DNA from: Dryococelus australis
Lineage: Eukaryota; Arthropoda; Insecta; Phasmatodea; Phasmatidae
Reading direction: 5' to 3'
DNA length: 64,000 nt
Assembly: GCA_029891345.1 (NCBI GenBank)
Contig: CM056994.1
Coordinates: forward strand, 222,123,991 to 222,187,990
Shown: positions 18,964 to 60,409 of the stretch, piece after piece
Position numbering within the stretch: the stretch's first letter is position 1
How the letters are laid out: every line of letters begins with the position of its first letter
Made by a program: the position numbers and the translations under genes
Notes under the pieces: model-generated
Seen by the model: only the letters and a program-made list of their open reading frames with translations
Database searches by the model: none
Told to the model about the DNA's origin: nothing

Positions 18964-19086
18964 TAAATTAAATTTATTTTTGGAATGCGACTATGGGAAG
19001 CCTGAGCCTTATGAGCACGAGACCGATAATAGGGCATTCAAGACAAAAATGTATCAGTACACAGTGTCAGCGACATAGAGAATGAA

Positions 19087-26080: not shown

Positions 26081-26083
26081 CCC

Positions 26084-26232: not shown

Positions 26233-26263
26233 GTCACAACAACGTCAAATGAAAGTTAAAAAA

Positions 26264-26361
26264 AAAAAGTGGTCTGAGGCGTAAGTCTGGCGACCCAAGG
26301 TCCGGCAGTTCGATCCCGCACTATTCCAGGTAGTATTTTGAGTTCCAAAAAAAAAAAAAAA
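26264..26361 (+). mobile_element. Second SINE-like unit with poly(A) tail
   Basis: TGGTCTGAGGCGTAAGTC followed by GGCAGTTCGATCCCGC (B-box-like), a short body and an A run at 26,347-26,361. It follows the previous poly(A) unit directly, so this may be a dimer or a second insertion into the A-rich tail. Confidence 0.5.
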
Positions 26362-26399
26362 AGCAGCGCCCCTATGGCGGCTGATCGACTAATCGAATG

Positions 26400-27282
26400 A
26401 GAGCTCCTAGCTCAGAACCAATATCAAACAAGAAACCGAGATGGCGTCAAATGAAGGTGAGGGATAAATAAAAAAATGTAAACAAAGATGGCGGCCTCCA
26501 GTAACAATCGATGCAAACAAATAATGAACGAATAGGAGAGATTGAGAGGAAGATAGAGAAAGAAAAAAGAAAGATTGCAAAAGAGAAAAATGGGAGCATT
26601 CGTAGAAAATCCTCGGAATGCAAGAGTATGACTTAGTGGTTACCAAGATGGTAGTCCAAGATGGCTGCGTACTGGCTACAAAGTTGGCGGTCGTACTGGC
26701 TAGCAATATGGCGGAATCCAAGATGGCAGTCGCGTGACCGCAATGACAGAGCGGGAAGTCCAGAATCCAAGATAACGACCGTGTGACCTTGGCACTTCAC
26801 ACTGCAGCCTGATATCCCCGAACCGTCATATGCCTGCTACTACTGTGTTTTAATGTTAAAACTCAGAGTACTGGTTGTAGTGATTCAAACACAATGAAAT
26901 TCTTGACAACCATATCTGTCCCTATAATATACAATGTAAGGGCTTGTGGTGGGTACCACAACGTTCACGTTTTGCTTAGGAATGTATGTGCGGAAACGTA
27001 CCACATCACATAGTACGTAGGTACCGTATTTGTGTAGACGTCGCTAGTCGTTACATCGAGCCCTTCTTATAAGTGAACCCAGAAGATAAACAGCGCACAG
27101 TATGTTGCAGACGTGGAAGAGATCAACATGTGGTTTGGTAGTATTTTGTTTGTCGCGGGGAAACGGTACATTTCTGCACATAAGTTCCTATGCAATAGGT
27201 AACCATCTTGGTCCCCACTACATTCCCTTACAATGTGTAATGGGAAAATGGGAATTTTGACACACACTTGTATGTATGTATG

Positions 27283-27359
<77 letters not shown>

Positions 27360-28100
27360 ATGTGTGTGTGTGTGTACATACACATAATTTCGACCTGCAC
27401 TGGCACCGATGTCCTGATTCCTGATAGCTCAGTCGACTAGGACTTCTGTCTTCTAGTTCAAGATGTGGCAGTTCGCCGCTCCTCATCTCCACAGCAATTC
27501 ATAATGTATTAAATCATATCACCTCGATAGAGGTGAGTGTCTGCATAATGGAACATTGCCCTTAGGCTTCAATCGACACCAGTGCTCCTAACAGCCGAGG
27601 ACGATATCAAACTACACTAGCGCTTCCTAGCATATACTGGGGAACCAAGATGGCACCCCTGATGGGCAACAATGTGGCAGCCGATAGTAGACAACCTATC
27701 AGATGATAATAAAACCAATATGACGTCCCTGGCAAGAGCAACCGACATCCAAGATGGCGGCCGACGCCAGCACCACCTAACAGACGATAGAAAAACCAAG
27801 ACGGATACCTACAGCAGAAGATACAAGATTACAGCTTACAGATATCTTATATGGTGGATGGAGTGAGAGAGGGAGCGAGCATGCGAGATAGAGAGGAGAG
27901 TAATATACATAAAACAACTAAAAAAACTCTAGAAACAAGATAATGGCATGGAATGACAAAGCATGAAGTACCAAGGCAGACTGACAGAATGAACTGGAAT
28001 TTCCTTGAAACAAGACTGTAGAGGCGAAAGAAGATGGCAGAAACATTGAGTTCCGGCGTCTATCTCCTTAGCTAACCTAAGATGGAGAGCTTCTTACGGT
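26400..28100. other. Block rich in AAGATGGCGG/C motifs; no supported gene
   Basis: CAAGATGG or AAGATGGCGGC words recur on the plus strand at about 26,481, 26,647, 26,658, 26,720, 27,647 and 27,751, with looser GGCGGTC and GCAATATGGCGG variants between. AAGATGGCGGC is the YY1-type site; the insect orthologue Pho binds GCCAT cores. A weak tRNA-like patch (TAGCTCAGTCGACTAGGA then GGCAGTTCGCC) is at 27,425-27,478. Frames here are short. Confidence 0.55.
27280..27380. repeat. (GTAT)n(TA)n(TG)n microsatellite
   Basis: GTATGTATGTAT, then about 60 bp of TATATA, then GTGTGTGTG. It produces spurious long open frames on both strands. Confidence 0.95.
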
Positions 28101-32882: not shown

Positions 32883-33600
32883 TGATCGGCTGCGACCAAC
32901 ACAAGAAGAGAGGACTTTGTCTCTACATCTCATCAATGTAGATGTTAAACTGAAAGCAACAGAGACCCCACAGAAAATGCAAAAGGTCATGTTAAGGGTT
33001 TGTGTTTGCAGAGTGAAAAATTGCTTTATGAAGATACTTCTTTATATAAACTTCCCATTACAAGCATATATGAAAAATATATATGAAAATTCCCAAAAGG
33101 GTATAAAAGATATATTTTTTTCCAAGATTTTCTAAAGCATGATTTTAGTTTCCACCACAACTTTGCAATTACATAAATTAATACAATAATAAAAATGCAC
33201 AAAGATTATGCAACTTTCATAATTTTGGTAGCAAGGCCTTGATTTAAGTCCCTGGCCTGTCTACCCGCACAAGGGAAAAACACGCTTTATATACCAAAAC
33301 ATCAAATCTTCTAGATCATTTTCTACTGTTCTTCATTTGGAAATTGCGCCGTGTCCGGCTGGCTGGCGTCTCGTTGTCATAGTGATGCACAGGTGGAGGG
33401 TAAGGTGGATGGAGATGCTTCGAAGGAGGAAGCAATGCGCACGCCGCTCACTTGACGAGCAGCGGTCATGCAGGAAACAGCTGTAAGGTGGTGGCCGGTT
33501 GAATGGGTTCCGTCGCAGCAAAGGTAAGCCGTGTCCACGACCCTCGTGTAGAAACAGCTTTTCTAGGCACGGTGAACTTAGCTGTAATTTCCATGTGACA
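32883..33600 (-). repeat. 3' LTR
   Basis: Shares GAGGACTTTGTCTCTA, CAGAAAATGCAAAAGGTC, CAACTTTCATAATTTTGG-like, GGGTTCCGTCGCAGCAAAGG-like and GTAGAAACAGCTTTTCTAGG words with the copy at 38,328. A TTTATATA-like word near 33,286 may be the LTR TATA region. The high-coordinate edge is uncertain by about 120 bp. Confidence 0.85.
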
Positions 33601-34358
33601 TGTCGGTGTTGCTCACGCTGGCCAGGCCGTTACCCCAAGCTTCTCGATGATAGCAACATACAGCATTTAAAACAGATATACACCAGGGACTTACTCAACG
33701 ACTCGTAGAACATTACATTTTCAACTTTTACTAGGTAGGTGCTGTTCAAAAAAACTTTTTTACACAAATACTCATAAAAAATACTAACTATGAAACCAAT
33801 AAGCATATTTTAAACATGTGTGTACATCATTAAATATTTTTAACTCATTCTATTACCTCCCATACATTTCTATATGTACTTAATTCAACCACTAAGAGAG
33901 TATAATTCCATCATATTTCACATTAATACTCTTTAGAATTATCATTAAAATCATTCTAAAGCCAGTTCAAATTTTAACATTCTAAATATTTTTGGACGAT
34001 AAAACACATTTTTTCAACCATAACAGATTAGGGATTTTTTTAGGGGCAGGGGGAGCACCTTTACACTGCATTAGAAGGTATATAATAAATTTTTACAATG
34101 GGAAATGTCAACCTTTTCATAATTGTTGGGATAATGTGGAACAATAATAAATACAGTCACAGGCGAAAAAAAGTCTTACTTTTTTATACGGGCCTCGCCA
34201 TTTTACGGCTAGTTTAGCGCTAAAAAATTAATTTTTTAATTCAGGTGTCGAGCCTCAACTAACACTGATTTGAAATTTAAATCCTTATAGGAAACATTTG
34301 TTTCTATTACATTTTTTTAGTGATACGTAATTAAGTTACATGCCACAAATGCCCATAT

Positions 34359-35090
34359 TTATTCTAAATTTTTATGACTCACATTCTCCAAATAAATACA
34401 ATGGAGTGACCACACATTTAATAGGGGATGCAATAAACATCGTCCCAAAAATACATCGGCTGGAACATATTTATGAACACTATGAACAATATTTTTAAAA
34501 CACAAATATAGTACATCATCCCAGTGACATCCCGTATCAGATTGAAAACTACGTAAGGCAATTTTAATGTTACGGTTTACTCGTTCAACTAAGTTGGCCT
34601 GAGGGTGGTGCTGTGCAGTCTGCACCATTTTTAACCCCCATAAAAATTTTTAATATGTAAATACCTAAGACAAAAAGTACGTAGCAACGTCAGATACTAC
34701 AAACACGGGCGAGCCAAACACACTATATAATCTCTGCATAACTACCTTGCGGATTTCCGGTGTCTTTATGGTACAGAATAGGAAAAAATAAACAAACTTT
34801 CCGCAAGCTTATGTATAACTACGAAGACATATACACATCCAGAGGTACTCCTGGGCAAAGGACCCATTACGTCAAAATAAATGTTCTCCCGCGGATACGA
34901 TGCTATTGTACCTGCATATGGCCCTTCAGATTTTTTTTTTGTTTTTAGGTTTTGCATGCTGACACGCATCGCAACACCTAACGCAATTCTCTAAATCGGC
35001 GCGCACTCCTGGCCACGTAAAAAAAGTTCTAATACACGGGTTACTGTCTCATCGCATCCTACGTGACCTCCGTGATAAGATTATTGGTAA
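34359..35090 (-). pseudogene. Integrase of the LTR element
   Basis: The HHCC zinc residues can be read across frames near 34,960-35,080 (HGGHVGC, then RCCDACQHA). The core starts DVMGPLPRSTSGCVYVFVVI near 34,880; the position normally holding Asp after VVI is His. The C-terminal part of the core, HHPQANLVERVNRNIKIAL at 34,556-34,612, keeps the Glu, and VPADVFLGR follows. Frames change between the pieces. Confidence 0.85.
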
Positions 35091-35446
35091 CATTTAAATA
35101 CCATAGCCCTTAACTTTTAAGGAAAAAACTCCGAATTTTCCTAGTTTTGCCAATTTTCCTAGAAATTCTTCATGAACTACGCGACAAGAATTCTCGTTTT
35201 TAATTCGAGGTAAAATCTGTTTCCACTCCGTGTCAGAATTTTGGTGTACTTTTATATCCGTTAAGGCACTGGGAAACTTTTGCAACGTATTTAATTCTAA
35301 AAAATTTATGCCAACGGAATCTGAATCAGCTGACCGACTATCCACAGGTGCCCCATTCTTCACGTCTCAAATTCTTCTGCGCAGTACATGCGTGACAATG
35401 CGTCGGCGACAGAATTATCGATCCCTTTTTTGTGCTGCAAGGTAAA

Positions 35447-35839
35447 TTAAAAATGAGCTAGCCTAACCAGACACTTTGCCAATCTACCAGGTGGCTTCTG
35501 AGATGTTAATAACCAGCTGAGTGCTTGATTGTCCGTGAACAAAGTAGACGGTGCATGGTCTAAATTATCTGTAAACGTTTCCATTGCCCATATATAACTT
35601 AAATCCTCGTTCTCGTAAATTGTATATTTCCGATCAGTCTGAGTTAGCAATTTACTGGCGTATACTATCGGCACAAAATGGCCATTCTTCTTTTGGGTCA
35701 AACATGCCCTAACAACTACAGAACTTGCATAACAATGCAAAGAAATTTCTTCGGAAAAATTTCGCAAATGCAAAACAGGAGTGTTAGCTAACATTTCCTT
35801 TAATTTTTGGAAAGCATTTTCTTGTTCCGCATTCCACAC
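35447..35839 (-). pseudogene. RNase H-like domain of the LTR element
   Basis: An uninterrupted frame with ENAFQKLKEMLANTPVLHL, then IVYASKLLTQTDRKYTIYE, then LFTDNQALSWLLTSQ and PPGRLAKCLVRLAHF: the usual gypsy connection plus RNase H order. The usual Asp after LHC is read as Tyr here (LHCYASS), so one metal ligand seems lost. The linker to integrase is at 35,094-35,363. Confidence 0.85.
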
Positions 35840-36014
35840 AAGTTGTGCATTTTTTATTTTCCATGGTCCAGTAAAATCAAAGAATTTTGGAATAAATTTA
35901 CTGTAAAAATATTTTTACACCTTTAAAATATTTGGGTTGTGGAAAATTTACGACAGACTTTAACTTTTCAGGGTCATAAGTAGATTACCCTCGGAAATAA
36001 CAAAACCCTAAATA

Positions 36015-36859
36015 TCACATATGTTGTTGTGCCCAACTTATTTTTTCTAGGTCCACCTTCAGACCAGCATTTATTAATGCGTCTAGCATAAGTTGCAAGA
36101 GCTTAATGTGTTCCTCTAACGTGTTACTGTATACGCACACTGCATGAATGTACGTGAAGACGAACTCATACAAGCATCGTCCCAATACTTGATTCAATTC
36201 TCTAGACATACATTAGGGTCCCGAGTTTACCCTCATGGGCAACTGCGTTGGTACAACCCCCAAGGAGTACAAAAGGCTAACAGTGCCCTACTCTCAGGAT
36301 GTAATTTACACTGAAGTAAAGCTGAATTTAAATACAAAATTGTAAAATATTTTGCTCTTTGTAAATGCTGGAAAACAGTTTCCATAACTGGCACCAGATA
36401 TGAATCTACATACAATTTTTTTACTAACTTTACTGTAATTACATATTAGCCGATATTGACCTGTTTTTTTTTCGGCAACAAGAAAGACGGACTAGGATAC
36501 GGACTAATGGATTCTTCCACAATTTCCTGTTCCTGTAAACCAGTTATTAACTGTTTGAAAACATGCATTTTGGGAGCAGATACACGGTATGGCACGCACA
36601 CTACGAGCTCACTATCTTCTAACTTCAACACAGCAGCAGTTTCTTTACTGTGCCCTAACTTTGACGTCAACACATCACTATACTCTATTTTAAGCTGACC
36701 TAATGCCTGCACTATTTCTTCGGACTGCTGAAGCAACTGAATTTTACGACAGCGGGAAGGTTTAACTTGCAAAGATATTACTGTATCGGGGAAAAAACTA
36801 GACTTCGACACTTTTCTGGCTACGTCAATACATGTGTGGGTGCTTCCCAAAAAAAGCAA
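36015..36859 (-). pseudogene. Reverse transcriptase of the LTR element
   Basis: Pieces in order from 36,859 down: the N-terminal lead-in (VPYRVSAPKMHVFKQLI, SISPYPSPSFLLPKKK), the palm motif A region FTILYLNSALLQCKL where the usual Asp is Tyr, and the motif C region FTYIHAVCVYSNTLEEH where the usual YxDD is YIHA. All three catalytic aspartates are therefore gone. Stops separate the pieces. Confidence 0.88.
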
Positions 36860-37199
36860 TACCCAAAATCACATCACGTGATAAATTAAAAAAACACGGA
36901 ATAGCAATTCCCAGGAAAACTTTTCAATTATAATTTTTATCACAGCTACAATATTTGACTATATCAATCCTCCACATGCTAAGGAAAATACCGCAGACTT
37001 GCCCCATTTTAACTGCACAGTTCCAACTGGTGATTCACGCAAGATTTTATTGCAAGTTTCTTCCTCCCCGAATATACCAATGAGGACATGGTTAAGTTAG
37101 TAATTATTAATGGAACATGTAGCAAGCACTACTTATTAACCAAATTTGTGTTTAAAACAGAACCTATTCTTACAGGCTTTCCTCGCAACATACATTTGA

Positions 37200-37260
37200 A
37201 TTACATGTGACTAGGATTACCACATTTATAACAAATTATTACTTTTACCGGTTTTCGACC
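37200..37260 (-). pseudogene. Nucleocapsid zinc knuckle remnant
   Basis: The minus strand reads CYKCGNPSHM followed by a stop. This is the start of a CCHC knuckle (C-x2-C-x4-H-x4-C) lacking its last Cys. It sits between gag and reverse transcriptase, as expected. Confidence 0.6.
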
Positions 37261-37493
37261 TTCAGACTTTCTTTTATGTCAGACATTTTTCCGTCGAATA
37301 ATTATTCCGAAAACAAATCTGACATTATTGTTTCGGTTTTACCTGAATGGAATTTACCTCTCCTTTTTGGGTTTTATAAAAACATTTTGCTGTCGGGTGG
37401 TTTGTCCGGAAACAAATTTGACAATGTCATTTAGGTGATATTTCTTTGTACGCTTTGGCTTGCAATTGCCAACAGTTAATTCTATTTGAATTG

Positions 37494-38173
37494 CTAACAC
37501 AATTCTTGTAACATTTGTGGCTTAGAGGCAAAAGTAAAAAACTTGCTATTTTTCGGCAATAAATTGAAACACATTACTTCTACCAAATTTGTTTCAGCAC
37601 ATGGCAATCTCATAATTTCTACCAATTTAATTGCCTCGCTTACAAATAACTGCATAGTTTCGCCCAGACTTAGAAATCTGTCTAAGATTTTCACACATTG
37701 TTGGACAATAGCAACAGGAATACCTGTTTGCCGCAACATAGTCTGGCCAAATTCAATACAGGATATACGCTCATTTATAGCTTTCCCTGTCACAATTTGC
37801 AAAGATTCGGGTACCTTGAACATCGTGGCCGCGCATAACAAGGTTATTTCACAGATGTTAAGTGAGACTACTCGGCCATTTGAACAAACAACTTTACTAT
37901 TGCTCTTAGATTTAGACTATGCACTACCTGGAACCCGTCACTTAGACTACTGGGCAAATGCTTTAAATGTTTGAAGATGATAATTGCAACGGACTCATCC
38001 TTTTGGTGGCAAGCAACTCCTCCTTTCCTCACCAACTCCCGCATCAGGTGACGGAAGATATCAATTCCGTCGTCCGGCTTAAATGTCCCACCCGCATCGG
38101 TGAGCGATTTTTGCAGAGATTCCTTACATAGGGACTGGTTGCAGAATTTGCGAACATTTCCTGTAGAAGTCAT
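37494..38173 (-). pseudogene. Gag of the LTR element
   Basis: Two minus-strand frames (38,173-37,868 and 37,841-37,494). The first begins MTSTGNVRKFC about 155 bp inside the 5' LTR, a plausible gag start. The second is helical and alpha-rich (VKILDRFLSLGETMQLFV). The position and lack of other domains make gag the best call; the sequence itself is not diagnostic. Confidence 0.55.
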
Positions 38174-38327
38174 TTTGTGGATTAGTTTGATGCACCTCGA
38201 CTAGGTTCACCTTGACCACTGTAGCAAACCCAAAATTATTTTGCACAAAATTCAAAATTCCTATAATGACAACGCCTTTTGACTAATTGCACTGAGGAAG
38301 CAGAGTGGCGCAGTTTTCTCTCTACAT

Positions 38328-39015
38328 GTGACAGTTTCAGTCAACACATGCAGAGAGGACTTTGTCTCTATGATTCCTCAATATATATGTTAAATTGAAA
38401 GAAACACAGACCTCCCCAGAAAATGCAAAAGGTCGTGTTAAGAGTTTGGGTTTGCACAGTGAAAGATTGCTTCATGAAAATTCCCAAAATTGTATAAAAG
38501 ATTAATTTTCTTTCTAAGTTTTGCTAAAGCATGATTTTAGTTTCCACCACAACTTTGAAATTACAATAATAAAAATGTAATAACTTTCATAATTTTGGCA
38601 GCAAGTCCCCTCTCCATTTTTTTTTTAAATAAGGAACTGCAGTTCCTGCTTGGTTAAAACCCCTGGCCTGTCTCCCTGCATAAGGGAAAAAACAGGCTTT
38701 ATATACAAAATCATCGAAGCTTATATATCATTTTACACTGTTCTTCGTCTGGAAATTGCCCCTGGCACGTCGTGGCTGGCCGGCATCTCGTTGTCATAGA
38801 GACACACAGGTGGAGAGGAAGGTGGCTGACGAAGCTTTGAGGGATGCAGCCAAGCACGCACCAGACACTTGGCGAGCAGTGGTCTTGCCAGCAACATCAG
38901 TATGGTGGTGGTCAGTTGAATGGGTCCCGTCGCAGCAAAGGTGAGCTGTGCCCATGGCCCTCATGTAGAAACAGCTTTTCTAGGCTCCACAAACTTAAGC
39001 GTTATTTCCACCTGT
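38328..39015 (-). repeat. 5' LTR
   Basis: Partner of 32,883-33,600. It carries an extra T-rich and GGAACTGCAGTTCC segment near 38,617-38,655 that the other LTR lacks. A TTATATAC-like word lies near 38,699. Confidence 0.85.
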
Positions 39016-40344: not shown

Positions 40345-40480
40345 CCGAGCGAGGTGGCGCAATGGTAACTCAATGGAATCGCATTCGGGAGGACCCGGGT
40401 CCGATTCCCGGTCTGCCATCCTGATTTTAGTTTTCCATGGTTTTCCGAAATCACTCCAAGTGGGTAAACTGTCAACGGTC
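40345..40480 (+). mobile_element. tRNA-derived SINE
   Basis: GAGCGAGGTGGCGCAATGG (A-box), then GGACCCGGGTCCGATTCCCG (B-box), then a body with TTTTCCATGGTTTTCCGAAA and TCACTCCAAGTGG. Same family as 12,490-12,634, on the opposite strand. Confidence 0.88.
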
Positions 40481-41910: not shown

Positions 41911-42960
41911 ATCAATTATTTTTAGCATTTTCAGTCAAAAATAAAGGTAACAAATGAGTCATGCATACAGATATAAAAAAATTAATTTTGAATTAAAAAT
42001 AATTAGTCTGGAAATATTTAAAATTAAATAGCTTTGCAATACAAATTCTAATTTTTTAATTACAAATGGATTCGTAGTAATATATAATCCATTAAACCAT
42101 ATAGTATCCTGTCTTAGACGTAACCCTCACATTACTATTATTTTTTTAATTTTGGACTATCAAGACAAGACTGCATTGTCAGTAAAAGAGCCTACAATTA
42201 ACCCGAACGCACACCATTGTAGGCGTAGTGATGTCCTCTTTGAGCAGAAGCGCAAATGTTTGTGAAGCGAAGAGATTGTTAGAGGCCTTTATGGCGTGGT
42301 TGTTACTCACTGAGCTGCTAATAAGTGAAAACTTATTTTCGAATGAGAAAACAATATATGGATGTATTATCTGCTCTATGGCTTTGAACTTGCAGGAGCG
42401 AACACTAAATATTTGCTATTGGTAATGTGTGATTTATAGCTGTACAGATGGTGATAGGTAAATTACATCAATATAAAAAATACCCTTTCATGTTAAATTT
42501 AGTTCCAGAAAATAATTAATAAATTTCAACTTGTATATACTTTATGTAAATAATTTCTTAAAGATGACTAGTTTTGTGTTCTGGGTAGGGATTATACATT
42601 AATTAACTTCAGATTTTAATACACATTAAAATAGAAAATGTTGGGAAGTTAGCCATAATTGATTAAAGATTGAACTAATTTGTACAGTAGGAAGACAAAT
42701 ACAAAGCTATTACTAGACTTGTCAACAAAAGGAAATTAAAACATTGTTTCTAATGCATGGCAGCCTGTCACATATAGATCAATTGTGCGAATCCCACTAC
42801 ATTTTCTATTCATATCATTGTCTTTGAGTTCCTGTGATGTTGGAAATATATTACCGATTAATATAATATAGTAAAACGAAAATACACGTAATCAATACAC
42901 ATGAGCACGTGATTAACTGGGATTTTCCAACCACATGATAGTAAAGTGAAATGTCAATAT
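41911..42960. other. No supported gene
   Basis: A/T-rich. A short plus frame at 42,228-42,425 has ordinary composition and no recognisable domain. Confidence 0.45.
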
Positions 42961-43030
42961 TAGTAAGATAAATATGAGTTTGGGACAATATATTTTAAAT
43001 GGCAGCCGCTGCGGCTGCAATTTGCTGGGA
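42961..43030 (+). repeat. Left outer inverted repeat
   Basis: About 70 bp with ATGAGTTTGGGACAAT, AAATGGCAGCCGCTGCGGCT and GCAATTTGCTGG; its complement is at 53,063-53,132 with about a dozen differences. Confidence 0.88.
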
Positions 43031-43429
43031 GACTCGGGTTTGCCGAACGTACCCGAAGGTGTTCGGCAGTTACGCCCACTAATTCTTCTAGCATATATGT
43101 CTGTTTCGGGTAACCACATTATTTTTATAGGTATATGGTATGTCAAATCGTAAATCCGTTTTATTATTCGATTTTAAAATTATCTTTAATTATAAATTAT
43201 TAATTTTTTCTTGTGTCGTAATTATTCATAGGATATTGCAAAAACATGCAAAAGTCTTTCAAATAGATTTTCTGCCCATCTCTTGAAGTTATAATCGTGG
43301 TATGGATCAACATCTACCAACACTTTTATAGACACACTTAGCATTAATTTAAATGCCAATATTGCCAGGCCCTGGATGCTTGGAACGTACGCGGGTGATA
43401 AACTGTCTTAACTTCCGTGCTCTTCTTGA

Positions 43430-43570
43430 CCATCAATCTTTCGCAATATTTCCATCAATATTTCAGATTCTTTCCATCAATCTTTAGCAATCCTCCTCCT
43501 CAGCAATCTTTCCATCAATCTTTCGCAATCAGCACCGCAATATTTCAATCTTTCCATCTATCTTTCAGCA
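43430..43570 (-). repeat. GATTGATGGAAA minisatellite, left copy
   Basis: Tandem CAATCTTTCCATCAAT-type words with a period near 12-25 bp, the complement of 45,530-45,830. Confidence 0.8.
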
Positions 43571-45529
43571 TTATTTACTAACATGTCACGTAGGTGGTTC
43601 TTGCATGTAGACTACTAGAAGGATTTGAATGAGTCGGGGCCATCAGCATTTGGCACATGAGCCTGGCACCGCGTCAGCCGGCCGCCATATTGTGGTGTCA
43701 ACCAGTGGCCATCTTGGAAGCCAGTGCCCAATGACCGTTGACCTTTTACCTTTTACCCGTGATTTTTAACCTCAAAAAATCCTAAAAATTAAAACAATTT
43801 ATTAAAAAATACTATTAAAATTTGTTAAAAAATACATTATAAAATTTACTAAAATATTATTTTAAAAATTATTAAAATATTTACTAAAAATAATTTAGGC
43901 ATCATCACCACTATCTTTGTCGGTGCCATACGCCATCTTAATAGGTGCATTCGATCGCCATACTGGTAGAAATCATTTGTTTATACATTGCTGTAGGCCT
44001 CCATTGTGGATTTTTTCGTCTGCTTATCAGCTTTAAGTCGTAGCACTCCTACCCTGTATCTATGTTAACCAGAAAAGACTAGCACAAATATTATATTCTG
44101 AATTAATTTAGTCCATTTTAAAAATGGCCAAGGTCAAACTTCAAACATAGGTCACATTCCAGCCCCCGTGCCCCAACTCACCATGGTCCTTCTACTAGTC
44201 TACATGCAAGAACCACCTAAGTAAGATTTTCGTAAAAAATGCTGTAATAAATCCCATATAAATACATGATGTATGAAACTTATAATGTAAGTTGTTAGAC
44301 GCATTTTGGACGCAGGATTGAGATCTTATAGAGGGATAAATGCTTCACAGTTCGAATAGCGACCCGAGTTTTGAATAAACCTTAACGAACTTCGTACGTA
44401 ATTTTCTGTCTGTTTACGTGCATATATGTAACTGACATAAATATTTATACAATATCTATCGTTTAGGCATATCGTGAGACCCTGAGTTCAAATATCGAAA
44501 TTATAAAAAAATATTAATTTTCTATCGGACTTGGAAAAAAATGTGGTAATTTTTACCCGTGTTCGGTGAATATTATAGGAATTTATAATAATGTCGAAAC
44601 GGAGACTTTAGCTATCGGAAATGGGGATCAGGGCAATGTAATAGGATCGTAAATATATTGAAAACCCGAAAGTTTGAAGCTTTTCTTTTTCGGACTTAGA
44701 ATTTGATTAGTAACCTAAATTTCGGAAACTTTTTATAGCGATGTTATTAAATTAATTTATTGTTCACTGTTTGGTATTCATCCACAATTTTTACAGGTTC
44801 GAAACTTGAGAAATATATGCTGATAAAAATATATAAACATTACCATACTGATTGATGATAAAAAAACAGAACATACTGGTTGTGGGCAAACAGAGAACAT
44901 TCCTTAAAAAATTAATCACTCTTCACACACATTCCAAACACTTGAAAAAAAAAAAACTAAAGCCAGCGCACAAGGAAACATGATGTATAGAAGTCCATGC
45001 ACCATTAATTCATAAACTGCTTCAGATAGCTAACAAAACTTGAAATATTTCGCACTTGAGACATAAAATCTATCATAAATATAAATTATGTTTATTACGC
45101 CAATATACAGACACATCAAATGTGAAAAAAAATACTAAAAAATATTTAATTGTTTAATCCCTTACACCAAATCAATTTCTTTTTAAATCTATGGGGAAAA
45201 ATAAAACCTCACACGCAAGTTACAACGGGAAAAAAATTAACTTTAATTCATAAAAAGTGTACATTATGGTTAGCCCGGAAAGAGTCCTACCAGACGAGTT
45301 GAATGAACTTCTGGCCGATCCGTTAGCTGCTAACTTATCACCGTTACCCTGCCAGCCAGTAATTTTTTTCTATGTGAAAATATATTTCGTCCTCACATTA
45401 TCTTCGCTCAGATTGATATCATGGCCATACTTAAAGCAGGCAACTGACTTCAGCAGACTAATTCCAGCCTGCGATTGCGGTCCTGATTGCGATTGCGATG
45501 CTGATTGAAAAGCTGATTGAGGTGCTTAT

Positions 45530-45830
45530 TGCGAAAGATTGATGGAAAAGTTGAAAAATTGAAATATTGCGGTGCTGATTGCGAAGGACTGATGGGGAGT
45601 TTGGAAGATTGAAGGAAACATTGCTAAAGATTGATGAAAATGTTGAAATATTGATGGATAGATTGCTAAAGATTGATGGAAAGCTTGAAAGATTGATGGA
45701 AACATTGCTTAAGATTGATGGAAAGATTGCTGAGGAGGACTGCTAAAGATTGATTGAAATAATTTGCAAGATTGATGGAACGAGTGCGAAATATTGATGG
45801 AAAGATTGAAAGACTGATGGGGAAGAAAAG
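45530..45830 (+). repeat. GATTGATGGAAA minisatellite, right copy
   Basis: Many GATTGATGGAAAGATTG and ATTGCTAAAGATTGATGG words. The block just before it is built of GATTGCGATGCTGATTG-like words (45,470-45,530). Confidence 0.85.
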
Positions 45831-46984
45831 CACGATCGTTTGGACTGTTTACCACTGTCGTACATGCCAAGTCTCCAGGGCCTGGCAGTATTGGCATTTA
45901 AATCAATGCTAAGTATGTCTATAAAAGTGTTGGTAGATGCTGATCCATACCATGATTATAAGACAATCGTGCATGTGGACGCTATTAGTAAGACAGGCTT
46001 TATTTGTTCATATATACATACATTAAAAAATGCCGAGTAGCATACTTATACCAAAAAAATAGTCGAGGCAGTGAATAATGAGAGTACTAGGGAAATGGCG
46101 AGTTGGGTGCAATGGCATCTGGCACCAGTGTCGGATTATGGAAAGCCGCCATCTTGTTACATTGCCCGACCGCCATCTTGGAAGTCATTGACATTTTACT
46201 CCTGACTCATGACCTTTGACCCGTGATGACATCGACCCTGGGGACCTTTCCCTAAAAACCTCCAAAAACCCTTTAAAAAAATCTCAAAAAATTCTCAAAA
46301 AATATTTAAAAAATCCAAAAAATCATAAAAAATTCCGAAAAAAAATATTATTTATAAAAAATTAATACAAATTGTTAAAAATTTTACAAAAGGATCCACA
46401 GAAATAACCCATTTCCCCCTAAAAAAATATATAGGTAGAAGCCCTTAAAATCCCATTTTCACCGAAATGAAGTAATTTGAGGGGCTTCGTTAAGACCTTC
46501 AGAGCAGTTGCGGAAATATTGGTTTCATAGGCATACCCTATGCCAATCAGATACAAGGGATACAGAATAGCAATCAGACCTAAGCATCAGTCATCTTGCC
46601 TCCATATTGTATGCAGATGACCTTTGACCTTGACCCAGGGCCTTTGACATTGACCTTTGATCAAGGAAATGTGAAAAATTAAAAAACCCAAAAAATATAT
46701 TATTAAAATTATTTAAAAATTACTAAAAGCATGTTATTAAAATTAATAAAAATATAAAAATGTATTATATTGTAAAAAATTTCTAAAATATTATTTTAAA
46801 AATTTAATTTCCCGAGATTCCCTCCACCTTCCCTCACCAAACAAATTAGTCGACTGGCTTCCACCACCTCCCCCCATACCTAGTCAGCCAACTTGGTAGT
46901 CGACCACCATCTTGGTAGACATTACCTGTCTATAATCTTGAAAGCCAGTGCCCATTAGCAATTGAGCATTGGCCTTTGACCCTT

Positions 46985-47640
46985 AATACCTGAACCATGA
47001 CCTCGACCTTGACCCCATGACCTTGAAAATAAAGACCTTGAGAAAATACATAAAGGTTAGCAAGCATAATAAATTTCACACTACCACCACCATATAAGAT
47101 GTAGACTAACTTTATATTGGCCCCATGACCTTGAATGACATTTAAACAAATGAGAAAAAAATGTAAAAGTAAAAAAGCACAATACATTACAAACTACTAT
47201 CGCCATATCAGATGCATACTACCATAACCTCTACCCCATGACCTCGAATGGTATTAGGAAAAAAACTCGAGAAAAATCCATAAAAGTCAGCAAGCATAAT
47301 ATATTACATACTACTACAGCCATATTAGATGTAGACTACCTCGATTTTGGCCCCATGACATTGAATATCCTTGAAAACAAAAACATGTGAAAAAATCCAT
47401 AAAATTCATCAAGCATATGACATTACAGATTACCACCGCCATATTAAATGCATACCAGCTCAACCCTGACCCCATGACTTTGAATGATATTGAAAACAAA
47501 AAATACATAAAGTGAGCAAGCATAATACAATACAGAATACTATCGCCATATTGGATACAGACTACATTTACTTCGATCACATGACCTTGAATAACCTTGA
47601 AAACAATATGTCGAGAATAAATTCTTAAAAGTAAGCATGC
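46985..47640 (-). repeat. About 115-bp tandem array, left arm, with AGGTCA half-sites
   Basis: CCCCATGACCT-type anchors at about 47,013, 47,121, 47,234, 47,351, 47,470 and 47,578, spacing 108-119 bp. On the minus strand each unit opens with TTCAAGGTCATGGGG or a variant, followed by a CATATGGCGGTAGTA-like word and an AT-rich part. Six units, all diverged. Same array as 50,600-51,330 in the right arm. Confidence 0.88.
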
Positions 47641-47994
47641 TGGAGACCAAATGAGCCACCAACCCTTTTATGTATAGGCATAAAATACATGTAAATTTCC
47701 ACCCTATTGAAAACGCATGTTTCTAAACAGCAGTATACCTACAAGCATGATGCAAGAATTTGAAGGCATGCATAATTTATTAAATGTATATTTGTTATTT
47801 AAAATTAAGAGTGCTTTGATTTTAAAAAGTTTTTTATAATTATATAATTGTACATACATTGCAATATACTATACACAATAAATTTAAACGGATTTATTTT
47901 ATTTCTCTAACTTTTATATTTTAATTATATTTTCACAAATTAGGAAACCATGAAATAAAACAAAATTTCATTCACAGGCATTTTTTTATTCAAT

Positions 47995-48441
47995 TTATTT
48001 ATTACAATTGCTAACGCCTTCGAAACAATTACACATTTCTTTTATATGTCTAAGTAAATTGTCGCTATGGCTGATCTGCATACCACACCTGTCACACAAA
48101 TATGGCATGCAACACAGATTTTTTGCACAATTAAAGCGCTCATGTCGCCGAACATTGCTGCTGCCGGTGAAGGTCTTTTCACAGAAGCGACACTTATAAT
48201 GTCGGAATGGTTCAGCAGATGTGGTTTACCATGCAGATGCTGCTGGAAAAGAGGTCGATGGTCCAGTTGGCGATGCCGATGGAGCTACTGTAGGTAGCCC
48301 GCTCATAGAAGTCGATGACACTGTCGACGTCATACTTGAAGTCGTCGATGACTGCACTGCTGTAGATGTCCCACCCGAAAAATTCGACGGTGCTGTTGAC
48401 ATCATGCCTGAAGAAATCCATGGCACTGATGTAGCTATCAT
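47995..48441 (-). pseudogene. Left-arm zinc-finger gene, one internal stop
   Basis: The minus-strand frame starts ATG at 48,441 and runs in one frame to TAA at 47,995, broken only by a TAA at 48,226-48,228. The N-terminal half is Ser/Thr/Pro/Ala-rich with repeats of a VPSTSSG-like motif. After the stop come two fingers: CRFC-x12-H-x4-C and CDRC-x12-H-x4-C (the latter CDRCGMQISHSDNLLRHIK). Both keep all ligands, so they are CCHC fingers of DNA-binding type. The right-arm copy has Ser at the position of this stop. A protein from the second half alone would still hold both fingers. Confidence 0.75.
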
Positions 48442-48573
48442 TAGTTCTGGTGTGCCTGAAGATACCGCAGATGCAGAATAAGAATTTTATGCGAAGAGGC
48501 ACAAGCTAGCCGCGACTACCCACCTTTTACGGCAGCTGCTGTCAAACTATACCTCCTAGCTGGCTTCCCTACT

Positions 48574-48740
48574 GCTTATATACGAGTATTGCAAGCCCTA
48601 GAACGTCATACTGACTTTGAAATAATTGTATTGCACCATTGTGCAAACACCAACCAGTCAATCACCGACCAGCCAATCACCGACCAGCCAATCACCGACT
48701 AGCCAATCATCGACCAGCCAATCACCGAGTTGTCACGTGA
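48574..48740 (-). promoter_or_regulatory. Left-arm promoter: TATA, four CCAAT at 15-bp spacing, E-box
   Basis: On the minus strand TATATAA lies at 48,582-48,576, about 140 bp before the ATG. Upstream, CCAAT occurs on the plus strand at 48,673, 48,688, 48,703 and 48,718, an exact 15-bp period in a GCCAATCACCGACCA tandem unit, and CACGTG at 48,734-48,739. The right arm keeps the same order with fewer CCAAT sites. TATA, CCAAT and E-box are known promoter elements; activity is inferred. Confidence 0.7.
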
Positions 48741-48800
48741 TTGCACCTGACTAATCGCATACAAGCACTGAGACATCATGTGCGGGAGTCAGTCTCTGAG

Positions 48801-49427
48801 TCCTGAGGTGGAGGTTGATGTGGATGCGCAAGTGGATGTGGAGGGTGGATGCGGATGTGGATGGGGCGATGGAGGTGGATGTGGAGGTGGATGTTGATAT
48901 GGAGGTGGAGATGGATGTGAATGTGGAGGTGGAATAGATTTGGAGGTTGGTGTTGATGTGGATGGTAAGGTGGATGTGGATATGGAATTGGAGGTGGATG
49001 CGGATGTGGATGTGGATATGGAGGTGGATGTTGATATGGAGGTGGATGTTGATATGGATGTGGATGCAGAGGTGGATGTGGATGTAGATGTGGATGTGGA
49101 GATGGATGTGGAGGTTATGTGGAGTTATTTCGGAGTCATTATGGAGTTATTTGGAGTCGTTTGGTGGTGGTAGTGGTGGTGTTGGTCGTGGTAGGGGTGG
49201 TGGAATGATTTTGGAGACAGTCGGCAAATTGGAATATTTCGGACTCTTTGGGATGGTTTATGCATGTAGGTGTGTAGGTGTGGTGTGTGTGTAGCCATGT
49301 TTGGGTGTGTGAGTGTTTTGATGGTGGTTTATAGTAGGAAGTGTGTAGGTGTGTGGTGTATGTGTCAGTGGGTATGTATGGGTGTGTCAGGGGGTCTGAC
49401 TTTTGAGGGGTGGGTCTGGTACAACCC
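48801..49427. repeat. Central spacer with GTGGAT minisatellite
   Basis: Sequence between the arms. 48,810-49,125 is tandem GGTGGATGTGGAT-type, encoding a Val/Asp/Met/Glu run if read. Then TGG/GTT-rich sequence (49,130-49,410) with repeated GTGTGTAGGTGTG words. Neither part has an inverted partner, so it marks the dimer's axis. Confidence 0.88.
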
Positions 49428-49469
49428 AGAGACTGGATCCTGCACCTGATATCTCAGTGCTTGCATGTG

Positions 49470-49611
49470 ATTGGCCTGGTGCAATCACGTGACAACTCAG
49501 CGATTGGCTGGTTGGTGACTTGCTGGTCGGTGTTCGTACAATGTACTAATGGTGCAATATGGTTGATTCAAAAACAGTATGATGTTCTAGGGTTTGCATA
49601 CTCGTATATAA
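49470..49611 (+). promoter_or_regulatory. Right-arm promoter: TATA, inverted CCAAT, E-box
   Basis: ATTGG at 49,470 and 49,503, CACGTG at 49,486-49,491, TATATAA at 49,605-49,611. The CTCGTATATAAGCAGTAGGG block matches the left arm exactly in its core. ATG of the zinc-finger gene is at 49,746, 135 bp after the TATA box. Confidence 0.7.
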
Positions 49612-49745
49612 GCAGTAGGGAGGTCAGCTGAGCGCTAAAGTTTGACAGTGGTTGTCGTCAAAGGTGGGTTGTGTCGGCTAACTTATGCCTCTTCGCATCA
49701 AAGTCTTATTCTGCATCTGCAGTGTCTTCGGGCACCCCAGAAATA

Positions 49746-50200
49746 ATGGTATCTACAGCAGTGCCATCGACTTCTTCGGGAGTGTTATCAGCAGTGCCAT
49801 CGACTTCTTCAGGCATGGTGCCGACAGCACCGTCGACTTCTTCGGGTGGGTTACCTACAGCAGTGCATAAATCGATGACTTCAATCATGACGCCGACAGT
49901 GCCATCGACTTCTATGGGTTGGCTACCTACAGCAGCTCCGTCGGCAATGCCAACTGGTCCATCGATCTCTTATCCAGCAGCATATTTATGGTCAACCACC
50001 CCTGCTGAACCATCCAGACATTATAAGTGTCGCTTCTGTGAAAAGAACTTCACAGGCAGCAGCAATGCTCGGCGACATGAGCGCTTTAATTGTGCTAAAA
50101 ATCTCTGTACATGCCATATTTGTGTGACAGGCGCGGTGAGCAGATCAGCCATAGCGACAATTTACTTAGACATATAAAAGAAAATTGTAAATTTTATTAG
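49746..50200 (+). pseudogene. Right-arm zinc-finger gene, frameshift in finger 2
   Basis: ATG at 49,746 aligns with the left copy's ATG. The Ser/Thr/Pro-rich part is longer here, with tandem VPSTSSG units and a clear internal repeat. The first finger is intact (CRFC-x12-H-x4-C at about 50,030-50,090). The second begins CHIC near 50,112; its remaining residues (SHSDNLLRHIKENC) are in another frame, ending TAG at 50,198-50,200, so a frame change inside finger 2 breaks the gene. The frame is also open for 25 codons upstream of the ATG; a GT..AG-like pair (AAAG/GTGGGT near 49,663; TTCTGCATCTGCAG near 49,722) may mark a very short intron. Confidence 0.78.
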
Positions 50201-50599
50201 GCTGTTATCGACTGTAATAAATCAATTGAATAAAAAAATGCAATGGAATGGAACTTTGTCATATTTCATGGCTTCCTAATTTGTCAGAATATCGTTAGAA
50301 TTTAAACGTATAGAATGAAAACACATTTTACTATAAAGTATTCTATCTGGTATATTGTACTATATGTACAATTATATATTTAAATAAAAAAGTTTTAAAA
50401 ATTGAACATCTCAAAATTTTAAATAACAAATATATACTTATTAAGTTATGCATGTAGTCAATGTCTTACACCAGGCTTGTAGGTATACTGCTGATTGGAA
50501 ACAATTGTTTTAAATAGGTTAGAACATTACACATAATTTTATGCCTATACGTATAAACGCTGACAGCTCGCTTGGCCTCTATAATTTTTACTTTTACGA

Positions 50600-51330
50600 A
50601 TTTATTCCAGAGATTTTTCAAGGTCATTTAAGGTCATGGGGTCCAGGTTAAGGTATTCTGCTTCCAATATGGCGGTAGTACTCTGTAATGTATTATGCTT
50701 GTTGATTTTTATGTCTTTTTATAATATTTTTAGTTTTCAAGATCATTCAAAGTCATGGGGTCAGGGTTGAGCTGGTATGCATTTAATATGGCGGTGGTAA
50801 TATGTAATGTCATATGCTTGATGAATTTTATGGATTTTTTCACATGTTTTTGTTTTCAAGGATATTCAATGTCATGGGGCCAAAATTGAGGTAGTCTACA
50901 TCTAATATGGTCGTAGTAATCTGTAATGTAATATGCTTGTTGACTTTTATGTATTTTTTTTATCGAATTTTCATTTTCAGGTGTATTCATGGTCATAGGG
51001 TCAAGGTCGAGGTAGTCTGCTGCTAACATGGCGGTAGTAGTCTGTAATATGTTATGCTTCCTGACTTTTATGTATTTTTCTCGAATTTTTGTTTTCAAAG
51101 CCATTCAAGGTATTGGGGTCAAGGCCGAGGTAGTCTGCATCTAATAAGGCAGTGGTAGTCTGTAATGTATTATGCTTGTTGACTTTGATGTATTTTCCCA
51201 GAATTTTTTAAATATCATTCATGGTCACAATGTATTATGCTTTTAATGTATTATGCTTGTTGACTTTTATGTTTTTTCTCAAATTTTTATTTTTAAGGTA
51301 AATCAAGGTCATGGGTCAAGGTCGAGGTCA
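50600..51330 (+). repeat. About 118-bp tandem array, right arm, with AGGTCA half-sites
   Basis: GGTCATGGGG-type anchors at about 50,633, 50,751, 50,870, 50,991, 51,108, 51,222 and 51,307. Units contain TTCAAGGTCATT or GTCATGGGGTCA, then AATATGGCGGTAGTA, TGTAATGTATTATGCTTG and TTTTATGT. The last unit ends with a cluster: TCAAGGTCA at 51,303, TCAAGGTC at 51,316 and AGGTCATGG at 51,325. Confidence 0.88.
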
Positions 51331-53062
51331 TGGTTCAGGGATTAAGGGTCAAAGGCCAAAGCTCAATTGCTAATGGTACTGGCTTCCAAGATGGGGTACA
51401 GGTGATTTCTATCAATATGGCGGTCGCCTACCAAGATGGCTGACTGGGTATGGGGAAGAGGGTAGAGACTAGTCGAATAATTTGTTAGGTGAGGGAACGT
51501 GGAGGGAACCTAGAGAAATTGAATTTTTAAAATAATTTTTTTAAATTCTTTAACAAATTTTTAATAGCACAATATTTGTAATTGTTTTAATAATTTTAAT
51601 AACACATTTTAAAATATTTTAAATACAATTTTAATAATACATTTTTTGCGATTTTATGGATTCTTTTTTTGGACTTTCTAGGTCAAATTTCAAGATCAAA
51701 GATCCTGGGTCCTGTATCCCCTGTATCAATTTGGCATAATGTATGCCTATAAAACCAATATGGTCACCACTGATCTGTACGTCTTACGAAAGCCCCTAAA
51801 ATTACTCAATTGGGTGAAAATAGGATTTGAAGAGCTTGTACCATATTTGAGGGAAAATGGGTAATTTCTGAGGATCCTTTTATAATATCTTGTAATAAAT
51901 TTTCATAATTTGTTGTTAGTAAATTTTTCGGAATTTTTTAGAATTTTGTGGAAATTTTTGGAATTATTTGACGATTTTTGGATTTTTTTTTTAGAGTTAT
52001 TAGGGTTTTTTAGTGTCAAAGGTCCCCGGACACAAGGTTAAGGTCCGGGTCAAATGTAATGGGTCAGGGGTAAAAGGTCAATGACTTCCAAGATGGCGGT
52101 CGGGTGACGTAAAAACATGGGGGCTCCCCATAATCCGACTTCGGTGCCAGACGCCGTTGCACCCAACTCGCCATTTCCTTACTACTAATGAGACGCCACG
52201 AGAGGGACTTGAAATGTAGTTGAGAAACTTTTGGAGGTTTCCGTAATACCCTATGTAAAATTGCGACACAATATAAAAAAAATATTGATCTATAATTTTA
52301 AAAAATAAATATAAAATAGAATAATAAATACAGATTTGCGATTTTACATGCCATATGTCTATAAAACCAATGTGGTTACCCAAAACAGACACATATTTTT
52401 GAAGAATTAGTGATTTTGAAAGGCCGATTTGGGGTGGAAGTTGTTTGGCAGAATGGAGCGAGGCAGTTTGATAATAAATTGTAGAAAATTGTTTTAAAAT
52501 TATTGTTCGGGGATGCTTCTGTCTTTAATAGAGAGGAATCATTTAAATGCACATATGCACATTTAGAAGTGCTATTTTAAGCCGCGTTAGTGTGTATTTC
52601 TCAGGTATAAAAGCTGGTTTATACTACGTGTATTTAAAGAAACCTGTTGATGACAGTCAAACGAGTGCAGTAAGAAGCAAGCCTGTAATTAGGTAGAGTC
52701 CTAAAGGTGGAACTGCACGTACTCATAATTTAAAACCTCTTCAAGACGGTACTGTTTGCAGTTTGGCGTATACAGTTGATGATAAAGTGTTGCCTGATGT
52801 GGCGGTAAGAGGTAGTAAATTTCTGCGCGTGGTAATGATAAGGGTGAAATTCAAGTGGACAATTTGCAAGTGTGCCGTTGAAGGTTGCGGCGTGGTAAGA
52901 GGATAGTGTTTCGGTTTTATCCAAGATCGCGGTTGTACAGTGACAAGGTCATTGGTGACATAATAACAGTAAATAATTGGGAGTCGACAGCTTCCTAGCA
53001 CCCCCTCCCCCCTTCCCAGTCTAACAACTCCCTGGGTCGTGTCGAATCGAATACCGCCATCC

Positions 53063-53132
53063 GCCCAGCAAATTGCAGCCGCAGCGACTGCCATTAAAAA
53101 TACATTGTCCCAGACTCATTTTTACCCTACTA
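53063..53132 (-). repeat. Right outer inverted repeat
   Basis: Complement of 42,961-43,030. Beyond 53,132 no match to the left flank continues, so this is probably the element's end. No clean target-site duplication is visible. Confidence 0.88.
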
Positions 53133-53446
53133 CTTTCAATGTAAAGCCAACATCCGGATTTAATACGACGAAATTTAGACTTGGGAGTTCTGCGCAGCGA
53201 TGTCCAAATGCGAGTTAAACTTGGAAAAATTTTGTTTAATAAAATTTATTGCAATATTTCAACTTAACACGATTGCACACTACATAGACAACAGTTGCCA
53301 AGAGATGTACGTTAGCAAGAGCTTTTCCCTCCACCATTAAGACCAGCAGCAAAATGCTACAACTTCCCTTGGGTAAAAATATTTATGTCTAACTCATGAG
53401 GGGTTAGATTGCAAACAAAGATGACAATTGTTTGCTTTGCTTATAG

Positions 53447-53547: not shown

Positions 53548-54420
53548 GTGGACTGTGCACAACTGCTTGGAAATATGACAGTTTCCAAAACAGGCACGTT
53601 AGCGACGGAGCTATCCCCTCCGCCATGCAGGCCCTCGGCTCGTCGCTACACCTTGGCCTTTGGGTCGCCCTTTTTAATAGCCTCTTATGTGAATGCATTT
53701 TTATTGCAGGGCTGTTTTGGTCTCCATCCATTTGGACCAACAAATTTTCTCCAACATAGGTTTGAAATACCTTTGTTCTTTATCACTAAAAACAGTATGG
53801 CATTGAAATAGCTGCGATAAATTCTGAAACATATTTTTGCATTTTAAGTAGGTGTAGTTCAATATATATTGGGTAATGCTTGCAATGAATTTAAAAAAAG
53901 ATTTTATTGTGTTGATAATATGCAGCTAATGTACATAAGTTGTTCGTCAATGTGACTAAAAAATATTAAATAACTGTTAGGTACTATGTGTAACCTTATA
54001 TGTATGTCCAATAAAGCATTATACAGCGCATTTTTAAATAATCTTAGAGAAATATTATTATGAAATCAGGTGTCGTGAGCAAGGAACGTAAAATAACTTA
54101 GCCTTTATACCGGATGTACTCTAAAAATTATAATAACCACCACCAGAGTGTTGTAAATAGTACTAATGGGGTATATTTTATTAGGAAACTGATCGTCTAA
54201 CATCCATAGTTAACCTGCTAATAGCAGTGGCAGTGTGCAGGGGTGGGTATGCAACTTTGTGTACTTGACGTTGTAACCAGCCTGTGGGCAGTTCTTCGCG
54301 CCTGATAACATCGCTCACTACCGCATTGTATCAGTCTCAGTGGTGCTACATATCTGCAGTTCCTGAGAACTTGTTACTGTAACACTTGGAGAATGTTCCT
54401 TTAGGTGCTCATGAAGTGAT
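53548..54420. other. No firm gene; dispersed repeat
   Basis: 53,990-54,112 matches 57,225-57,335 (TGTCCAATAAAG/A, TATTATTA, AATCAGGTGTCGTGA, CAAGGAAC, AACTTAGCCT/AACTAAGCCT). The word CCAATAAA includes a polyadenylation-type signal, so the repeat may be a retrotransposon tail. The rest is AT-rich. Confidence 0.5.
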
Positions 54421-54421
54421 G

Positions 54422-54520
54422 TGGTCGCAGTAGGACGGGGCCCCACATCATTTCGCTATTGATGTTCGCTGGCATTTCGACATGCAGTACCTTAACCAGT
54501 TGATACTGTGCGACCAACTC
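54422..54520 (+). pseudogene. Mariner-type (DDE) transposase scrap
   Basis: The frame reads WSQ-stop-DGAPHHFAIDVRWHFDM. This matches the well-known mariner block around the second catalytic Asp (QQDGAPxHFA type), with a stop replacing one Gln and diverged sequence after. Only this short block is readable; the catalytic region before and after it is lost. Confidence 0.5.
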
Positions 54521-59705: not shown

Positions 59706-60001
59706 GTAGATCAACATAATTACCACCAATAATAATTTGGAGAATTTTAATTTTGAAGCAGTCAGGAAATTTCGCAATGTAATTTTTTATTTTACTCAGC
59801 CAATCACTAATAAATTATTCCCTTTTCTTTCTGAGTAGCGATCGTAGTTTTGCAACAGACTTCTATGACTCAATTCAGTCGTAGCCATATTACTTAATTA
59901 CGTTGCTAAGTTGAGACACACGAGCGAGGAGTGTGTGCACTAGACTTAAGGTCCGGCTTCACCCCATGTGCACAAATTCTTCGTTTTTGCGTGGTCATTT
60001 T

Positions 60002-60280
60002 GAATTCATAGTAATTACTGACAATGTGCTTAGTGGCAATGTACGATTATAGAAAATCTACATTTTACCGGTTGTCTAATATTTTTGTGCGTAATTTTAA
60101 CTGTGCAGTATCTGCTTGTTATAAAAAGTTGAGAACATATTTAAATGTTATTAATAAGTTCTCGACTTTTTACGACGTAAGCAGATAACACGCAACTAAA
60201 AATTACGCACAGAAATGTTGAACAACTCGGAAAATGTAAGTTTTCTTTAATCGTGCATTGTCAGTATTTACTACGAATCC
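60002..60280. mobile_element. Foldback MITE with arms of about 130 bp
   Basis: The left arm (GAATTCATAGTAATTACTG, CAATGTACGATTATAGAAAA, TACATTTTACCGG, TTTTTGTGCGTAA, TATCTGCTT, AAAAGTTGAGAAC) faces its complement in order. The tip is built on ATATTTAAATGTTATTAATA. Nearly the whole 279 bp is one imperfect hairpin; it ends about 130 bp from exon A. Confidence 0.85.
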
Positions 60281-60409
60281 TAAATTATGACGCGAAAGCG
60301 AAGAATTTATGAAACGGCGGAAGCTCGTGTAGAGGTGCTCTTACCAGAGCGGCGTACGTGGTCCTTGGTCACTCGGCTGGCGCTTACCCACACCACTCTC
60401 CTTGCTTAC

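Follow-up and report, generated by a model that had tools for sequence, protein, structure and literature searches.

In the phasmid Dryococelus australis, a stretch of 64,000 nucleotides (the whole stretch analyzed, here called the window; GenBank assembly GCA_029891345.1, contig CM056994.1, positions 222,123,991 to 222,187,990 of the forward strand) contains a palindrome of about 10 kb at 42961-53132, counted from the first base of the window, with a zinc-finger gene in each arm. The question raised by this locus is what built the palindrome. A sequence-only reading had taken it to be a single 10.2-kb inverted dimer, two head-to-head copies of one zinc-finger element bounded by 70-bp repeats. 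We consider it almost certain that the locus consists instead of two palindromes, one nested within the other, and very probable that both are DNA transposons of one foldback-like superfamily, a reading that includes an account of their movement, the history of copying between their arms, and a guess at the function of the finger genes.

RESULTS

One palindrome inserted into another

A self-comparison of the window yielded the antidiagonal expected in a dot plot of 42-54 kb, with matching blocks in mirror order across 42961-53132:

42961-43029 and 53132-53064: inverted pair, 90% identity
43077-43270 and 52412-52212: inverted pair, 79% identity
46083-47604 and 52186-50733: inverted pair, 72% identity, 815 bits
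47039-48801 and 51200-49424: inverted pair, 78% identity, 1,505 bits

The two outer pairs scored 167 and 94 bits, and the best inverted score in 20 Markov-shuffled versions of the 10.2 kb was 41.9 bits. With scores reaching 1,505 bits in the self-comparison versus 41.9 at most in the shuffles, the mirror-order palindrome is real, as had been proposed.

The genome was searched with a query from the left side of the palindrome. This gave at least 104 matches from the 40 candidates scored of 4,781, and eight loci were delivered, one being the window itself; the seven non-self loci were extended and are called regions A to G. In all seven, block O (43031-43289) was joined directly to block P (46083 inward), which is the arrangement of a related palindromic family. 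The window differs from this outer family in that P', on the right flank, adjoins the inner arm instead. When the flanks of the window were joined with the insert omitted, they aligned without a break to each of the six regions tried (A to F, with G set aside) at 74-78%, and the empty site read TAATGAGA in five of these regions and TAATAAGA in one. The junctions in the window are GAATAATGAGA abutting GTACTAGGG and CTTACTAC abutting TAATGAGACGCC, with a perfect 8-bp target site duplication (TSD) of TAATGAGA. This duplication and the six uninterrupted homologous sites demonstrate that a 6.1-kb palindrome inserted into another palindrome. They also contradict a single 10.2-kb head-to-head dimer; the blocks to either side of 46084-52185 are parts of a second element, one that is related to the first.

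The outer element, 42960-53133, is 4,064 bp long without the insert and has ends related to those of the inner element. Its features are as follows:

42960-43029, plus strand: outer left terminus T, beginning TTAGTAAGATAAATATGAG; gap-free over 34 bp with eight other termini of both families, and 90% identical to the right terminus
43031-43289, plus strand: outer block O, left; present in 7/7 regions fetched, each time joined to block P
43289-46083: outer interior, blocks P, U, S', Q', and P', with the inverted pair 43289-43570 and 45664-45961; the same blocks occur in varying sets in regions A to G
46076-46083, plus strand: left TSD copy, TAATGAGA
52186-52193, plus strand: right TSD copy, TAATGAGA
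52194-52412, minus strand: outer block O', right
52413-53063: 650-bp block, right side only
53064-53133, minus strand: outer right terminus T'

No Pfam domain was found in the open frames of at least 45 amino acids of the block at 52413-53063. A clear outer-family palindrome, 75.5% identical over 1,772 columns, was present in region E. The segment 43289-46083 was also considered as a foreign insertion into the left arm, which was rejected, as regions A to G show it to be outer-family interior. About 1 kb beyond the outer element, a segment at 54125-54486 is matched, in inverted order, by the two outer sides of region G and is possibly the end of another relative.

Termini and target site duplications

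Nine termini align gap-free over 34 bp: the left and right ends of the inner element, of the outer element, and of a second inner-type palindrome in region A, together with the outer-family ends of regions A, C, and F. The two families are therefore related. The nine were chosen and cut at a shared start, so their common start is partly by choice, which does not apply to their likeness further in. Ends of the shared kind were also found in three gene-bearing loci described below (L039, L040, and L043).

The second inner-type palindrome (C17:110019209-110024424, 5,216 bp) has flanks GATTCCGA and TATTCCGC, which match at 6 of 8 positions in the same register. Over the outer 950 bp, the two arms were 80% alike in the window copy and 82% alike in the region A copy, compared with 58-62% between the copies. 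For the outer element, whose ends are fixed by the shared terminus, the flanks TGTCAATA and TTTCAATG also match at 6 of 8 positions. For the four elements with both ends in view, the tally was thus 8/8 (inner), 6/8 (second inner-type), 6/8 (outer), and 2/8 (region G), that is, one perfect TSD, two degraded, and one that fails.

The inner element and its finger genes

The inner palindrome spans 6,102 bp. Its arms are each about 2.7 kb long, its ends resemble GTAGTARGG, and it contains the following features:

46084-48801, minus strand: left arm, a terminal inverted repeat (TIR) beginning GTACTAGGGAAATGGCGAGTTGGGTGCAA
49424-52185, plus strand: right arm (TIR), whose reverse complement begins GTAGTAAGGAAATGGCGAGTTGGGTGCAA
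48802-49423: axis, rich in (GTGGAT)n, without inverted repetition
47043-47637, minus strand: 119-bp tandem array, left arm
50615-51208, plus strand: 119-bp tandem array, right arm
47998-48441, minus strand: two-finger CCHC gene, left copy, with a candidate Met at 48441 and a stop codon before the fingers
49746-50174, plus strand: two-finger CCHC gene, right copy, open from a candidate Met, with a frameshift between the fingers
48572-48585, minus strand: TATA-box motif of the left gene, with 15-bp CCAAT-type repeats behind it at 48644-48728
49602-49615, plus strand: TATA-box motif of the right gene

With short margins included, 2,136 of 2,686 ungapped columns of the arms were identical (79.5%), so the palindrome is diverged, and it is repeated in the genome, in agreement with the sequence-only reading. 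The axis predicted there is also present; by alignment it is 622 bp long (48802-49423) rather than 627 bp (48,801-49,427). YY1-motif blocks and a half-site satellite had been proposed in the arms as well. The half-site motif, of the nuclear-receptor type, occurs 39 times at no more than one mismatch versus 15.2 expected. Enrichment of AAGATGGCGG was borne out (23 in the window versus 2.0 expected, with 10 inside 46084-52185); specificity of this motif to the element was not, as eight of the 23 lie at 25.4-28.1 kb, in a plus-strand cluster outside the palindromes (25436-28040). The very long TIRs around a short middle (2.7-kb arms, 622-bp axis), the tandem repeats within both TIRs (119-bp arrays), a TSD of about 7-10 bp, and dispersal as a multicopy family (gene unit, at least 40 of 5,894 candidates) are all features of the foldback-like structural class.

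As previously described, each inner arm carries a promoter (TATA), a two-finger CCHC gene, and a satellite. In both arms the TATA motif is followed by an S/T-rich frame with two CCHC fingers and by AATAAA signals. Both finger genes of the window copy are broken, and 12 of the 16 gene copies compared, drawn from 13 loci, have one or more stops in the finger region. Finger matches were found in 11/11 non-self gene-unit loci. In L040, L028/L042, and L030, an additional finger, degraded and akin to the first of the two in the gene, sits between the gene and the axis; a degraded finger akin to the same one was also found in the outer-family regions D, F, and G. Elsewhere in the window, 10910-11280 is related, in degraded form, to L040 and L042 at their second finger block (81% to L042 over 169 bp) and is probably a remnant of the same superfamily.

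All 89 open reading frames (ORFs) of at least 45 amino acids in 42.9-53.2 kb were scanned against Pfam. Nine families matched at an E value of 0.01 or less, six of them zinc-finger models; the remaining three (exonuclease V gamma, metallothionein, and FXa inhibition) matched one ORF each at E values of 0.005-0.008 and look like chance. Nothing was found in Rfam and ARAGORN searches, nor in searches of viral contigs with the finger gene, PolB, and the terminus.

Kinship of the arms and exchange between them

A genome search with the gene unit (49420-50300) gave at least 44 matches, with 40 of 5,894 candidates scored and 76-84% identity for the long non-self matches; all copy counts are lower bounds. 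Clear inverted partners of the unit were present at C2:87.15 Mb (L039) and C17:105.95 Mb (L040). A tree was built from 16 gene units of 13 loci (median end branch, 0.081). In all three two-armed copies, the window, L039, and L040, the two arms were sisters, with support values of 100/99, 80/72, and 100/99, respectively, and all three pairs were likewise grouped in 7 of 200 shuffles. The sisterhood of the arms is clear for two copies and fair for one, and their excess identity is small. This pairing of the arms within each copy implies that they were made alike before insertion and decayed afterwards. Neither arm of the region A palindrome has the finger ORF, and the junction at its place is the same in the two, as copying of one arm onto the other would predict. 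We regard such copying between arms as probable.

The sequence-only reading held that the palindrome had escaped gene conversion, which did not prove to be the case. The following tract lies within the arrays:

47320-47505: conversion tract, left, partner of 50725-50910
50725-50910: conversion tract, right, partner of 47320-47505

The two are identical at 182 of 186 positions (98%), compared with 78.2% for the other 2,500 arm columns, and the best segment scored 162, compared with 109 at most in 2,000 column shuffles, a control that takes no account of local clustering. Constraint does not explain the tract, because other copies are no more than 83% alike to it in the six best of 42 matches. 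The arms therefore exchanged sequence once divergence between them had begun.

Other features of the window

The window also contains several repeats and remnants:

18363-22034: fragmented remnant of a gene for a PolB-type DNA polymerase; it encodes an endonuclease VII domain and, at the N-terminus, two pairs of zinc fingers
32897-39010: old Ty3/gypsy-like element with LTR-like direct repeats at 32897-33593 and 38342-39010 (72%) and an RNase H domain at 35450-35914, minus strand
12523-12632 and 40349-40458: inverted pair, 88%, presumably a tRNA-derived SINE rather than TIRs
59971-60311: self-inverted stretch of about 340 bp, 71%

DISCUSSION

Comparison with known elements

The layout of these palindromes matches that of Galileo and Tetris of Drosophila, the nearest known counterparts. 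Copy 112 of Galileo (P superfamily) in D. willistoni is 9,021 bp long, with TIRs of 4,246 and 4,680 bp, tandem repeats of about 140 bp, pieces of other transposable elements, and, as described there, no transposase, and other Galileo copies have taken ORF sequence into both TIRs and have a TSD of 7-8 bp (PMC4168063). The tandem repeats of Galileo TIRs hold transposase binding sites (PMC3688188), and a study in D. mojavensis proposed that long TIRs draw recombination and conversion (PMC3573991). In contrast to Galileo, each TIR of the inner element described here holds a complete unit of promoter, finger-protein gene, and polyA signal, and the duplication, TAATGAGA, differs from the Galileo TSD consensus GTATTAC (PMC4168063). 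Tetris, a foldback element of D. virilis, likewise has long TIRs with internal tandem repeats (about 220 bp), a noncoding middle, a TSD of 8-9 bp, and modular, rearranged copies; it is described as lacking conserved ORFs, whereas the palindromes here have finger genes inside their TIRs (PMC4079207). In the titles and abstract openings of the literature searched, no foldback element was found whose two TIRs each carry a finger gene, which is not proof of absence, as the searches were partly swamped by unrelated insect papers. A promoter-gene-polyA unit within both TIRs seems unusual. The VANC proteins of the Arabidopsis VANDAL elements bind tandem repeats in noncoding parts of their own family (PMC10398659). 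VANC thereby serves as a model of how the finger protein might act. These are plant elements with a different protein, and VANC offers an analogy and not a membership.

A proposed history of the two elements

We propose that both palindromes transposed by cut and paste, each as a single unit, with transposase supplied in trans; as no transposase was seen, this mode of movement is only inferred. The long TIRs would have grown by arm-to-arm copying during repair, as proposed for Galileo, and this copying would have left both arms with a complete finger gene. Once inserted, the two arms would have decayed independently, apart from one later conversion tract. Our guess at function is that a small two-finger protein was made from the CCAAT/TATA promoter, with transcription directed outward, and bound its own element, most likely at the 119-bp arrays of both TIRs, where it may have assisted the pairing of ends or protected the element from silencing. 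Binding to the arrays is proposed only tentatively.

Several observations weigh against this reading. No transposase domain was found in any of the 89 ORFs scanned, and neither a P-type transposase nor a THAP domain was found in these or in 10 selected ORFs of L039, L040, L042, and L043; an autonomous, transposase-bearing partner may exist elsewhere in the genome. Regions B, D, and E gave no terminus of the shared kind in a motif scan, and that of G was diverged; both ends of G are in view, its flanks match at only 2 of 8 positions, and the ends are less clear. Unconstrained TSD scanning yielded candidates in 393 of 1,000 random pairs, so that strong evidence comes solely from the perfect 8-bp repeat and its empty sites. 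Within-copy identities of the arms were 0.85, 0.848, and 0.887, compared with 0.835 (0.804-0.889) on average between copies, and L039 and L040 had been extended because inverted pairs were already listed there. Of the four gene-bearing copies extended, two (L042 and L043, extended to 8-9 kb) were single-armed. Single-arm copies, for which a genome search had been suggested, were thus found, with the qualification that L043 looks like a truncated half: its outer terminus is present, and no second terminus was found within 3.9 kb beyond the promoter. Its flanking 8-mer has an exact repeat at L043:5798 without a terminus beside it, which leaves a small chance of a monomer at this locus. The ratio of nonsynonymous to synonymous substitution (dN/dS) between the two arms of the window was 1.23 (bootstrap, 0.66-2.84), and that of the finger region among the 16 gene copies was 0.66 (0.48-0.99); these values are at best weak evidence of past finger-gene function. 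Finally, the binding of the arrays is a guess from their layout.

Alternative explanations

The alternative that survives best, to which we give somewhat short of an even chance, keeps the nested structure and treats the finger genes as passengers with no role in transposition, derived from the host or from other elements and taken up as the TIRs extended. Galileo TIRs are described as recruiting non-TIR and foreign sequence (PMC4168063), the region A palindrome has termini and a 6/8 TSD with no gene in either arm, and the dN/dS values are near neutral. Conversely, two observations suggest a long association: the unit keeps its promoter and polyA signals, and degraded relatives of the first finger occur both in outer-family regions (D, F, and G) and next to the gene (L028/L042, L030, and L040).

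It is very improbable that the elements are nonautonomous satellites of the PolB/endonuclease VII element at 18.3-22 kb, which has similar N-terminal finger pairs. The left-arm fingers do match both finger pairs before PolB by tblastn (E values of 2.6e-5 and 7.8e-5), scores that none of 2,000 shuffles holding C and H in place attained. These fingers also match C2H2 chains of the ordinary kind, for example, ZNF568 at 3e-15, so the likeness is not specific and we have downgraded this link, and the motif scan found no related terminus (GTAGTAGG) beside PolB.

Slighter still is the chance of one 10.2-kb dimer of a zinc-finger monomer. This explanation accounts for the mirror order of the blocks across 42961-53132 and for the single-arm copies L042 and L043, but it conflicts with the TSD and the empty sites at 46083/52186. 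In six of the seven outer-family regions there were either no inner-arm matches or a few of about 40-260 bp (C, E, and G), and in region A the inner palindrome is separate, about 10 kb away. A head-to-head pair of complete TIR monomers would have its outer terminal sequence repeated at the axis, where the terminus scored 18 and 18 versus shuffle means of 18.6 and 18.2; this candidate was rejected, the arms of one copy also being sisters in the tree. The least likely explanation is that no transposon is involved and the palindromes arose as inverted duplications made by the host or as replication fold-backs; this would fit the head-to-head symmetry and the lack of a transposase domain in the ORFs scanned but not the 8-bp TSD, the termini common to two families, the defined empty sites, or the dispersed copies on many contigs.

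Implications

Taken together, the above-described results resolve a puzzling 10-kb palindrome into two insertions, with empty-site proof, and place foldback-like transposons with kilobase TIRs among the repetitive superfamilies of a 3.4-Gb genome. A wider proposal, which we consider unlikely at present, is that of a large palindromic superfamily with an outward two-finger CCHC gene in both TIRs, whose protein would recognize the arrays of its own element for end pairing or against silencing, as an animal counterpart of VANC, and would coevolve with these fast-changing arrays. Genes in both TIRs, alike before insertion, would make TIR-to-TIR copying directly testable, and the paired 119-bp arrays provide concrete targets for a binding assay.

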